Assembly: GCF_039525035.1 (NCBI RefSeq)
Contig: NZ_BAAAHE010000026.1
Location: 1 to 64,000 of the forward strand
DNA: 64,000 nucleotides
Origin: Sporichthya brevicatena
Lineage (GTDB): Bacteria > Actinomycetota > Actinomycetes > Sporichthyales > Sporichthyaceae
Direction of reading: 5' to 3'
Part shown: piece by piece, positions 12,389 through 53,856 of the stretch
How positions within the stretch are numbered: position 1 is the first letter of the stretch
How the letters are laid out: every line of letters begins with the position of its first letter
Program-made: the position numbers and the translations under genes
Notes under the pieces: model-generated
Databases searched by the model: none
Seen by the model: the letters and a program-made list of their open reading frames with translations, nothing else
Told to the model about the DNA's origin: nothing

Positions 12389-12463
12389 AAAGGGTGACAC
12401 CCCTTACTGCGCAGTAACAAGAAGGGGTGACACCCTTTCTGGCGCCAGAAAGGGTGTCACCCC
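12389..12463. repeat. Compound palindromic element, copy 1, between convergent genes
   Basis: Three copies of a 15-17-base near-palindromic module (core GGGTGACACC or GGGTGTCACC) are joined by the small palindromes TTACTGCGCAGTAA and TCTGGCGCCAGA. Positions 12424-12463 form a perfect 40-bp palindrome. Positions 12389-12405 and 12422-12438 pair with one mismatch. Bases 12389-12417 are identical to 53301-53329. The element lies between convergent WS/DGAT and the EF-G-like gene, so a bidirectional terminator role is plausible. A smaller hairpin (12461-12466 with 12475-12480) follows. Confidence 0.85.
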
Positions 12464-40478: not shown

Positions 40479-43154
40479 ATGGACTCCGCTGACATCCGCA
40501 ACCGCTTCTTGAAGTTCTTCGAGAAGAACGGGCACACCATCGTCCCGTCGGCCTCGCTGATCGCCGACGACCCGACGCTGCTGCTGGTGCCGGCCGGCAT
40601 GGTGCCGTTCAAGCCGTACTTCCTGGGCGAGCAGACGCCGCCGTGGAAGCGGGCGACGAGCGTGCAGAAGTGCGTCCGGACCCCGGACATCGACGAGGTC
40701 GGCAAGACGACCCGGCACGCGACGTTCTTCCAGATGGCGGGCAATTTCTCGTTCGGCGACTACTTCAAGGCCGGCGCGATCCCACTGGCGTGGGAACTGC
40801 TGACGTCCTCGGTCGCCGACGGCGGGTACGGCTTCGACGGGGACCGCCTCTGGGTGACGGTCTATCAGGACGACGACGAGGCCATCGACATCTGGCACAA
40901 GAGCGTCGGGGTCCCGCTCGAGCGCATCCAGCGCCGCGGCCTGGCCGACAACTACTGGCACATGGGCGTCCCCGGCCCGGGTGGCCCGTGCTCGGAGATC
41001 TACTTCGACCGCGGCCCGGAGTACGGCAAGGAGGGCGGGCCCGTCGCGGACGAGGACCGCTACCTCGAGGTCTGGAACCTCGTCTTCATGCAGTCCGAGC
41101 TGTCCGAGGTCCGCACGAAGGTCGACTTCGACATCCACGGCGACCTGCCGGCGAAGAACATCGACACCGGCATGGGCTGCGAGCGGATGGCCGCGATCCT
41201 GCAGGGCGTCGAGAACATCTACGAGATCGACACGACGCGGAAGATCCTCGACCGCGCCACCGAACTCACCGGCGTCAAGTACGGCCAGGACGAGCGCAAG
41301 GACGTCTCGCTGCGCGTCATCGCGGACCACTCGCGGACCGCGGCGATGCTCATCGGTGACGGCGTCACCCCGGGCAACGAGGGCCGCGGCTACGTGCTGC
41401 GCCGGATCATGCGCCGCGTCACGCGGAACATGCGGATCCTCGGCGGGCCCGAGACCAACATGCGCGAGCTGATCGACGCGACGATCGCGGCGATGGCGCC
41501 GCAGTACCCCGAGCTGCTGACCGAGGCGAGCCGCATCCACGCGGTTGCGGAGGCCGAGGAGGCGGCGTTCCTGCGGACGCTGCGCGCGGGGACGACGATC
41601 CTCGACACCGCGGTCGCCGAGACGAAGAAGGCCGGATCGACCAAGCTCTCCGGCGAGCAGGCGTTCACACTGCACGACACCTACGGCTTCCCGATCGACC
41701 TGACGCTGGAGATGGCGGCGGAGCAGGGCATCGAGGTCGACCGCGAGGCGTTCACGCGTCTGATGGCCGAGCAGCGCGCCCGCGGCAAGGCGGACGCGAA
41801 GGCCAAGAAGACCGGCCACGTCGACGTCTCGGTCTACCGGGACGCGCTGGCGGCGGCCGGCTCGCCGGTCGACTTCCTCGGTTACACGGAGGTCGTCTCC
41901 GAGGCGAGCGTCCTCGGCCTGATCGCCGGCGGCACCCCGGTGCCGGCCGCGAGCGAGGGCGACGAGGTCGAGGTCGTCCTCAACCGCACCCCGTTCTACG
42001 CCGAGGGCGGTGGCCAGCTCGCCGACCAGGGCGTGATTGTGACCGCCAACGGTGCGCGCATCGCGGTGCACGACGTGCAGTCGCCGCTCACCGGCCTGAT
42101 CGTGCACCGGGCCCGCGTGATTGCGGGTCAGGTGACGGTCGGTGAGAGCGTCCGTGCCGAGGTCGACGTGGCGCGCCGTGGCGCGATCTCCCGCTCCCAC
42201 ACCGCGACGCACCTGGTCCACAAGGGTCTGCGCGAGGCGCTGGGGGAGACCGCGGCGCAGGCGGGTTCCGAGAACTCCGCCGGCCGGTTCCGCTTCGACT
42301 TCTCCTCGCCGACCGCGGTGCCCTCGTCCGTCCTCGCCGACGTCGAGGACCGCGTGAACCAGGTCCTGATCGAGGACCACCCGGTCGTCGCGGAGCTGAT
42401 GAGCCAGGAGGAGGCGAAGCGCTCCGGCGCCATCGCCATGTTCGGCGAGAAGTACGGCGACACCGTCCGCGTCGTCTCGGTCGGCGACTACTCCCGCGAG
42501 CTCTGCGGTGGTACCCACGTCGCGCGCTCGGGCCAGCTCGGCCTGATCAAACTGCTCGGCGAGTCCTCGATCGGCGCCGGCGTGCGCCGCGTCGAGGCGC
42601 TGGTCGGCACCGACGCCTACCGGTTCCTCGCCCGCGAGCACGTGCTGGTCTCGCAGCTGGCGGACACGTTCAAGGCCCGGCCCGAGGAACTGCCCGACCG
42701 GATCGCCGGCGTGCTCGCCCGCCTTAAGGAAGTCGAGAAGGAGCTCGAGGGCGTCCGCGCCGGGGCCGTGCTGGCCGCGGCCGGGGAGCTCGCGGCGAAC
42801 CCGACCGACGTCAACGGCGTCGCCTACGTCGGCACCCGCCTGCCCGACGAGACCAAGGCCGACGACCTGCGCAAGCTCGTCCTCGACGTCCGCGGCCGCA
42901 TCGGCGAGTCCCGTCCGTCGGTCGTGGTCGCCGTCGCGGCCGCGAACGGCCGGCCGGCGCTGGTGATCGCCACCAACGAGGCCGGCCGGGCCCGCGGGCT
43001 CAAGGCCGGCGCGCTGGTCAAGGTCGCCGCCGGGGTCCTCGGCGGCGGCGGTGGCGGCAAGGACGACGTCGCCCAGGGCGGTGGCCAGGACGCCTCGAAG
43101 ATCGACGACGCCCTCGCCGCGGTCGCCAAGGCCGTCGCCGACACCGCGGGATGA
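40479..43154 (+). CDS. alaS: Alanyl-tRNA synthetase
   Basis: Class II synthetase of 891 residues. It has the N-terminal catalytic domain ([36 protein letters not shown]), the tRNA-recognition domain, the editing domain with zinc ligands [16 protein letters not shown] (about 574) and [14 protein letters not shown] (about 675), and a C-terminal C-Ala region ending in the Gly-rich [20 protein letters not shown] at 40479 follows AGGAA by about ten bases. It heads the conserved alaS-ruvX-mltG-aroE block. An inverted repeat spans the alaS stop codon and the ruvX leader. Confidence 0.97.
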
Positions 43155-43220
43155 CGTCCCGCACGGGCGCCTGTCGGCCCGCCGGAGGGCTGACACGCCC
43201 CTCGGCGGGACGTCATCCCG
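43147..43220. repeat. 16-bp inverted repeat between alaS and ruvX
   Basis: CGGGATGACGTCCCGC (43147-43162, covering the alaS stop) and its exact complement (43205-43220) enclose 42 bases. Each arm contains its own small dyad (GGGA/TCCC), so two alternative folds exist. The right arm ends just at the ruvX RBS (GGGAGGGG). It may end part of the alaS transcription or control access to the ruvX RBS. Confidence 0.7.
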
Positions 43221-43233
43221 GGGAGGGGTGAAG

Positions 43234-52869: not shown

Positions 52870-53280
52870 TTGAGCGCCAGAAGCAAAGCCCGTAAACGCG
52901 CGGTCGACATCCTCTTCGAGGCCGAGCTCCGCGGTCGCGGCGTCCTGGAGACGCTGACCGAACGCGTCACCGTCGGCGACCCGCCGGTGGCGGAGTACAC
53001 GCGGACACTCGTCGAGGGCGTCACCGAGCACCGCGCCCGCATCGACGAACTGCTCGCCACCTACTCGGTCGGCTGGCCGCTCGAGCGCATGCCGGCGGTG
53101 GACCGGAACGTCCTGCGTGTCGGGGTCTACGAACTGCTCTTCGCCCCCGACGTCCCGGACGCGGTCGCGGTCAGCGAGGCCGTCGAGCTCGCCCGCGACC
53201 TCTCGACCGACGAGTCACCCGGCTTCGTCAACGGCCTCCTCGGCCGCATCCTCGACCTCAAGCCGACCCTCGCCCTCTGA
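52870..53280 (+). CDS. nusB: Transcription antitermination factor NusB
   Basis: NusB with NusE (S10) binds boxA RNA for rRNA antitermination. The 136-residue helical protein begins LSARSKARKRAVDILFEAE, the usual NusB head, and ends in VAVSEAVELARDLSTDESPGFVNGLLGRI, the conserved C-terminal block. The start is TTG at 52870, eight bases after the efp stop; no clear RBS is present, so coupling to efp translation is likely. It converges on bldD with a perfect 44-bp palindrome between them. Confidence 0.94.
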   Translation: MSARSKARKRAVDILFEAELRGRGVLETLTERVTVGDPPVAEYTRTLVEGVTEHRARIDELLATYSVGWPLERMPAVDRNVLRVGVYELLFAPDVPDAVAVSEAVELARDLSTDESPGFVNGLLGRILDLKPTLAL

Positions 53281-53300
53281 CCTGCCAGGCCCACGTCAAA

Positions 53301-53344
53301 AAAGGGTGACACCCCTTACTGCGCAGTAAGGGGTGTCACCCTTT
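53301..53344. repeat. Perfect 44-bp palindrome, copy 2 of the intergenic element
   Basis: Two copies of the quasi-palindromic module (core GGGTGACACC) flank the small palindrome TTACTGCGCAGTAA, giving 22-bp arms without a mismatch. The first 29 bases are identical to 12389-12417. It lies between convergent nusB (stop 53280) and bldD (stop 53365), with poly-A before and TTTG after, so an mRNA hairpin with short U-tracts forms in both directions. Bidirectional terminator is the simplest role. Confidence 0.9.
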
Positions 53345-53364
53345 GTTGACAGAGAGGCGCGGCC

Positions 53365-53856
53365 TCAGACGTCGAGGGCGCCGCGGGCGTCGGAGCCGAG
53401 GACGCCCCAGTTGATGAGCTCCTCGGTCAGGCTCGACGGCGGCTGGTCGTAGATGACGGCGAGGGTCCGCAGGTCGTCCTGGCGGATCGAGAGGACCTTG
53501 CCGTTGTAGTCGCCGCGCTGGGACTGGATCGTCGCGGCGTAGCGCATCAGCGGGCCGGCCTTCTCGGTCGGGACCTGCTGGAGGCGCTCCAGGTCGATGA
53601 CCAGGCGCGGCGGGGGCTCGGCCGCGCCGCTGGGGGCGCCGCCGGGCAGCAGTTCGGCGACGGGGACGCCGTAGAAGCTGGCGAGCTCGGCGAGCTTCTG
53701 GACGGTCACGGCACGGTCGCCGCGCTCGTACGAGCCGACCACGACCGCCTTCCAGCGGCCCTTGGACTTCTCCTCGACCCCGTGCAGGGACAGACCCTGC
53801 TGGGTGCGGATCGCGCGCAACCGCGCACCCAGGGCCTTCGCGTACTCGGTGGGCAC
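53365..53856 (-). CDS. bldD: Developmental master regulator BldD
   Basis: BldD represses sporulation genes during vegetative growth when tetrameric c-di-GMP joins two copies. The 163-residue protein has an XRE-type helix-turn-helix (about 1-70; LRAIRTQQGLSLHGVEEKS, VVGSYERGDRAVTVQKLAELASFYGV). Its C-terminal domain carries the RxD-x8-RxxD c-di-GMP motif intact as R114-G-D116 and R125-Q-D-D128, the same numbering as in S. coelicolor. GTG at 53856 has AGGAG upstream. Two BldD boxes about 70 bp upstream imply autoregulation. It lies between nusB and pyrR, the conserved actinomycete place. Confidence 0.96.
   Translation of the reverse strand: MPTEYAKALGARLRAIRTQQGLSLHGVEEKSKGRWKAVVVGSYERGDRAVTVQKLAELASFYGVPVAELLPGGAPSGAAEPPPRLVIDLERLQQVPTEKAGPLMRYAATIQSQRGDYNGKVLSIRQDDLRTLAVIYDQPPSSLTEELINWGVLGSDARGALDV

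Follow-up and report, generated by a model that had tools for sequence, protein, structure and literature searches.

A REP-like, clade-specific family of nested palindromes at gene 3' ends in two sister actinobacterial species

The gap between the genes nusB and bldD in the 64,000-nucleotide stretch of DNA analysed here (the window) holds a long palindrome, which raises the question of whether it is a lone feature of this gene junction or a member of a larger family, and of what such an element does behind two converging genes. An earlier note made from the letters alone had described a perfect 44-bp palindrome with nearly palindromic arms, and both descriptions are borne out: positions 53301-53344, which read AAAGGGTGACACCCCTTACTGCGCAGTAAGGGGTGTCACCCTTT, are their own reverse complement over 44 bp with no mismatch, and the arm is near-palindromic by itself (GGGGTG-A-CACCCC). 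The 44-mer is built from GGGTG-A-CACCCC, TTACTGCGCAGTAA and GGGGTG-T-CACCC in succession, and each GGGGTGWCACCCC atom within it is an odd palindrome in its own right. Beyond the perfect part the pairing continues past a single mismatched pair, giving a whole element of 56 bp (Table 1). The flanking genes are convergent and both are confirmed by their Pfam matches. With a G+C content of 0.72 and a pairing probability of ~0.30 per bp, our own arithmetic gives an expectation of only ~2e-7 palindromes with 22-bp arms in 64 kb; this, together with the copy number of its first 29 bases (see below), rules out a chance palindrome. The next longest perfect palindrome of the window has 10-bp arms, a related one at 12424-12463 being set aside.

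For the genomic comparisons we used the window's own 5.2-Mb genome (G000), a sister species (G001), a further genome of the same genus (G002) and two of the same family (G003 and G004). The family consensus reads TGTSAARAAA-GGGTGACACCCC-TTACTGCGCAGTAA-GGGGTGTCACCC-TTTYTTSACA, with conservation fading ~10 nt outside the 38-bp core in 64 units from G000 and G001, and the atom is found elsewhere singly, paired or in arrays. The other copy in the window joins half a 44-mer to a further palindrome, which has CTGGCGCCAG at its centre and occupies 12424-12463. Separately, positions 43144-43223 of the window form an inverted repeat of 80 bp that pairs imperfectly (80%) and has GGGATGACGTCCC / GGGACGTCATCCC, and its 12-mer CGGGATGACGTC occurs 11 times in the G000 intergenic sample; the 12-mer CGCTTCACTCGC / CGAGTGAAGCGC occurs 10 times in the same sample and may represent a further repeat family.

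Table 1. Coordinates of the element, its parts and its neighbours in the window, with the palindromes that take its place at orthologous sites in G002
Feature	Position	Strand	Remarks
Whole repeat element	53295..53350	.	28-nt arms, one mismatched pair
Perfect 44-bp palindrome (reported finding)	53301..53344	.	Self reverse complement; genome-wide copies
First self-palindromic atom GGGTGACACCCC	53304..53315	.	Centre A at 53309
Central palindrome TTACTGCGCAGTAA	53316..53329	.	Predicted apical tetraloop GCGC at 53321-53324, varying among copies
Second atom GGGGTGTCACCC	53330..53341	.	Centre T at 53336; pairs with first atom; two centres covary among copies
nusB	52870..53280	+	Pfam NusB 1.9e-34; stop 14 nt before extended element
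bldD	53365..53856	-	Pfam BldD-like_C 2.8e-38; other-strand stop 14 nt from extended element
Other window copy	12389..12463	.	Three atoms, centres 12397, 12430, 12457; between convergent genes
G002 replacement palindrome CCCGATAGTGCAGTTGAGCACCGGT with its complement	orthologous to c26:77368		
G002 replacement palindrome GCGCATCCATGAGCTCATGGATGCGC	orthologous to c26:12397		
G002 replacement palindrome CGGATGACATCCGTTGCGACATCGCAACGGATGTCATCCG	orthologous to c4:117359		
G002 replacement palindrome GAACCATTTGGCGTGACACGCC	orthologous to c4:55820		
G002 replacement, GATAGTGGAGTTG hairpin	orthologous to c7:288900		Imperfect

The nusB-bldD palindrome had been taken for a second copy, its first 29 bases being identical to those at 12389-12417. 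That match is exact, but the description understates the matter: the 29-mer occurs 120 times (59 + 61) in the 5.2 Mb of G000, as against none for a reversed-pattern control, and most of these matches combine into perfect 44-mers. Among the first 100 of the listing there are no fewer than 41 such pairs, on opposite strands and 15 bp apart. The word AAAGGGTGWCACCC was recovered 260 times in G000 (132 + 128) and 221 times in G001 (105 + 116), not more than once in any of the remaining 392 genomes of a 394-genome sample of the class, and with no match in G002, G003 or G004, while GGGTGACACCC gives 297 matches in G000, i.e. ~300 copies per 5 Mb. In a collection of 84,980 species, which may omit the window's own or very near genomes, the 17-mer AAAGGGTGWCACCCTTT was found in only 47 scattered stretches, none of them actinobacterial by title. 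No match to the element was obtained in viral contigs, plasmids or phages, and a phage or plasmid origin was rejected on this ground. Being nearly exclusive to G000 and G001 and unmatched in these phages and plasmids, the element therefore belongs to a repeat family of one small clade. As a side observation, AAAGGGTGWCACCCTTT is present in three contigs (L143, L144 and L183) of one metagenome-assembled genome, Candidatus Saccharibacteria Nc150P4bin6, more than in the other matching genomes. Searches of Rfam returned only matches far below the gathering threshold, mostly to generic long-hairpin microRNA models, and in a literature search we did not find the core word described for any bacterial repeat. 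The element belongs to a set of about a hundred or more hairpins of nearly the same sequence in two sister actinobacterial species, and the palindromic repeat family that they form is real, well-defined and, to our knowledge, unnamed.

The placement of the copies relative to genes was determined in 768 kb of G000 (window included) and the corresponding parts of G001, with genes called by a purpose-written codon-score finder rather than a published annotator. A stop codon faces the element at all 51 sampled places, at a distance of 60 nt or less in 46 of them, and none of the 51 lies within a gene or between divergent genes. The preference for convergent pairs is strong: they enclose 17 of the 29 places in G000 (p = 1.6e-7) and 12 of the 22 in G001 (p = 1.2e-4), although such gaps supply only 16% of intergenic bases in G000 and 16-18% across the two samples. 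The median length of convergent gaps is 90-134 nt where the element is present and 12-30 nt where it is not. Still, 80 of the 97 convergent pairs in the G000 sample have no element, and termination between those genes is therefore independent of it.

Comparison with the relatives points to considerable age. The element is present in G001 at 21 of 22 comparable junctions, with flanks that are mostly 92-96% identical; one comparable place is occupied in G000 only and three, empty in G000, in G001 only. The recent duplication that the earlier note offered as an alternative to strong constraint thus finds no support, the family being an old, high-copy one common to the sister species at 21 of 22 junctions, and in its two-copy form it is ruled out by the copy count of the 29-mer. 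At the nusB-bldD junction itself, where an alignment of related strains had been suggested, G001 keeps the same family with a compensatory change, both arm centres being swapped together from A..T to T..A; in G003 and G004, on the other hand, the two genes likewise converge, but the spacer between them measures only ~18-28 nt and contains no element. The gene order at this junction differs in G002.

Orthologous copies often differ in atom number and outer flanks. Between G000 and G001 the copy at c7:301662 differs by one atom versus two, that at c7:288900 by four tandem single atoms versus nested pairs, and in the single-atom copy at c26:96467 a stem pair has changed from A..T to C..G. In G001 we also saw four single atoms following one another in tandem (L078:8537 and L079:5207), the period being 38 bp or 46/47 bp, and at the junctions of these arrays G000 has four-atom arrays with other linkers. 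None of the orthologues of G000 places that could be located in G002 (twelve plus one) bears the element. Five of them bear other palindromes (Table 1) and the rest show no obvious palindrome, three of the latter having only one aligned flank, so that the gene order may differ there. The earlier note had also envisaged an ordinary terminator without other genome copies, its place in relatives being taken by a hairpin of unrelated sequence. On this point the relatives give a mixed picture, with the family kept in G001, a bare spacer in G003 and G004 and unrelated palindromes at some other G002 junctions, but the very many other copies in the genome exclude an ordinary terminator of that kind.

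The element is predicted to fold with -48.1 kcal/mol (z -8.9) on one strand and with -50.2 kcal/mol (z -8.0) on the other. Across 55 main-type copies the loop columns (4 x 55 cells) hold 25 changes, or ~11% per site (8, 3, 3 and 11 at the four apical-loop bases), and the stem columns (32 x 55 cells) hold 7, or ~0.4% per site, which is ~30 times less; as the copies are related, these counts are not independent events. The two atom centres account for 7 and 4 changes in the same copies. The arm centres covary (A..T 54, T..A 5, T..T 4, A..A 1; Fisher p = 9e-5) and, at 0-3 and 6-9 nt beyond the core, the outer flanks pair more closely with the opposite flank of the same copy than in shuffled pairings (1 of 2000 in either interval), a pattern of paired change that can likewise arise when one arm serves as template for the repair of its counterpart. 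The C/G alternation in the outer flank shows no covariation (p = 0.37), and few paired stem changes are seen apart from the arm centres. As the orthologous sites are old, a stem that is nearly constant beside a drifting loop argues that the hairpin is under constraint.

What might this constraint preserve? An A/T-complementary stem-loop behind converging genes is a described form of bidirectional terminator (PMC1590033, PMC1852404). The element is consistent with this form, being a real unit at convergent gene 3' ends for which a stable hairpin is predicted on both strands, equally close to each stop at nusB-bldD (Table 1). The nine nucleotides after the stem contain ~5 T on both strands, as opposed to 1.3 expected, and this tract pairs with the A tract. 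The stable fold, the T-rich stretch and the resemblance to the described form together favour a two-way transcript-end element, and we consider it fairly probable that this is a clade-specific, REP-like repeat whose palindromes are maintained as 3'-end hairpins for both directions, probably as terminators. The hairpins probably mark RNA ends on both strands. Transcription of either flanking gene would yield an RNA that folds into a long hairpin beside a U-rich stretch, whereupon the RNA polymerase would stop and/or the 3' end would be protected. As the palindromic DNA has its A's at one end and its T's at the opposite end, a single copy could serve both converging genes and keep each transcript out of the other gene. 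Protection of the 3' end or RNase III processing may be variants of the same two-way transcript-end reading.

A simple terminator scan does not call the element, as its U-rich stretch is base-paired to the A-rich one and frequently has the form TTTCTT. Moreover, in same-direction contexts (n = 25) the T tract is no better on the side where it is needed (4.92 versus 4.84, p = 0.39), and equal upkeep of the A/T tracts on both sides is not predicted by pure termination. The suggestion that the flanking A and T runs suit termination in both directions agrees with the hairpin on both strands and with the A and T tracts on its two sides at convergent 3' ends, but not with the directional comparison. 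The element resembles bidirectional Rho-independent terminators in being a stem-loop with A's and T's close behind converging genes; it departs from them in that the sequence, and not just the shape, repeats at a hundred or more places, and in having a stem of ~20 bp with a weak tract (TTTYTT). We also observed that the DnaA-box-like CCTGTGGAAAA or TGTGGATAA adjoins palindromes of different families in different species (e.g. C7:121369 and C7:360931 in G000, g875001:23416 in G001 and L231:600 in G002), where it may just supply a T-rich tail on the other strand.

The centre TGWCA recurs in other palindromes of the genus. The odd palindrome GAGATGWCATCTC has 170 copies in G000, 77 in G001 and 1 in G002, CGGATGWCATCCG has 63 in G002 and 6 in G003, and GGCGTGWCACGCC has 28 in G002; the search was partly guided by this centre, and its enrichment is accordingly not an unbiased figure. 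These families have no T tract and at least some copies of the GAGA family lie inside called genes, and therefore they need not be terminators. On a related note, GAGATGWCATCTC is the core of TGCACTGGAGATGWCATCTCCAGTGCA and is seen with mixed half-arms (CAAGAG with CTCCAG; e.g. C7:30093, C7:370351 and C4:72467 in G000), while examples of the G002 families CGGATGWCATCCG and AACCATTWGGCGTGWCACGCC (28 copies of the core) are found at L231:613, L210:1764 and L234:19858. Tentatively, these families might form a genus-wide super-family of NNNN-TGWCA-NNNN atoms (arms GGGG, GAGA, CGGA and GGCG so far), with species-specific dialects at the same gene ends, a putative factor reading the TGWCA centre or the hairpin, and spread without a RAYT transposase.

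These families also bear on the explanations that compete with a two-way transcript-end element. A selfish REP-like hairpin of no use to the host, copied by an enzyme that works on hairpins of single-stranded DNA and simply tolerated downstream of genes, would explain the high copy number, the lineage restriction, the modular arrays, the several families with unrelated arms in one genus and the places occupied in only one sister species (one in G000, three in G001). It would also fit the finding that in same-direction contexts neither side is better kept, as well as families two to four, which have no T tract, so that palindromes evidently spread without being terminators. Yet the positions are old and common to the sister species while the stem changes ~30 times less than the loop, unlike a decaying insertion. 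Spread by an own Y1/RAYT transposase was likewise rejected, as the REP-associated Y1 tyrosine transposase (PF01797) was found in none of the five family genomes, the control genomes being positive, and by eye there is no clear target-site duplication at the presence/absence junctions. On balance, we regard a purely selfish element as possible, if rather doubtful. A double-stranded DNA site, with the odd palindrome GGGGTGWCACCCC bound by a dimeric protein, for instance a roadblock, nucleoid or topology factor, and used singly, in pairs or in arrays, would suit the occurrence of atoms alone and in arrays, their fixed 27-bp spacing in 49 of the 64 neighbour pairs, and the core TGWCA common to four arm families in the genus. 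We think it improbable, given that the variation sits in the predicted loop and the covariation spans 27 bp, which is the behaviour of a folded strand, and that regulator sites are not usually restricted to the 3' ends of genes.

Much less likely still is a DNA uptake sequence within terminators. In its favour, the terminator-like hairpins behind genes are formed here by a fixed word in inverted pairs, the arrangement known from Neisseria and Pasteurellaceae; however, uptake signals usually number ~1,000 or more per genome (PMC1852404), far above the ~300 copies per 5 Mb seen here, and none of the 29 element places in the 768 kb of G000 is in a gene. That the copies are ordinary intrinsic terminators, alike by chance or simple constraint, would agree with their position and shape, but is scarcely conceivable: it is refuted by the copy count, with 120 exact 29-mers against a control of 0 and no more than one match in each of the 392 other genomes of the class.

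As to origin, the unit would be the self-palindromic atom (A)AAGGGTGWCACCCTT(T), usually present as two atoms inverted around TTACTGCGCAGTAA, and the spread of the family would predate the split of the two sister species. Each atom is its own reverse complement, and neighbouring atoms are therefore both direct and inverted repeats whose number can change; local slippage or recombination would thus alter the atom number (from 1 to 4), as between orthologous copies. BIMEs of E. coli are mosaics of inverted REP units. More generally, REP and REPIN elements are short extragenic palindromes of hundreds of copies, mostly in convergent or same-direction gaps, that form mosaics of inverted units and bear GTAG/CGTC tags (PMC3733652). 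A REP-like amplification would be the nearest model for the origin of the present family, which shares with the GTAG and CGTC super-families a short palindrome in many extragenic copies. It differs from them in lacking a conserved end tag (GTAG is absent, CGTC occurs only in some copies, and the outer-edge base -10 is a mixture of T, G and C, with C in 17 of 64) and a detectable gene for RAYT/Y1, the transposase that accompanies GTAG REPs, in being a long perfect palindrome of self-palindromic atoms rather than one imperfect hairpin, and in its strict confinement to gene 3' ends. Bor, Ype and Efa are likewise repeated stem-loops near coding regions, with Ype and Efa preferring gene 3' ends (PMC1590033). 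These species-specific families resemble ours in lying close behind genes but are unrelated in sequence and phylum, whereas here several TGWCA-centred families occur and replacement is seen at orthologous sites.

The family is thus ordinary in kind, consisting of REP-like gene-end hairpins. What sets it apart is the perfect nested symmetry, the tight confinement to gene ends, the apparent absence of RAYT and the way in which palindromes at orthologous gene ends turn over from one species to another. In two species a hundred or more 3' ends share one hairpin, while in G002, a sister species of the same genus, part of these gaps hold different palindromes or nothing at all; the family therefore offers a clean natural experiment on what specifies the ends of bacterial genes. 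It also bears on a long-standing question about REP-like elements, namely whether they genuinely terminate transcription in both directions or are selfish hairpins that the host tolerates; in the present case the usual transposase is apparently missing.
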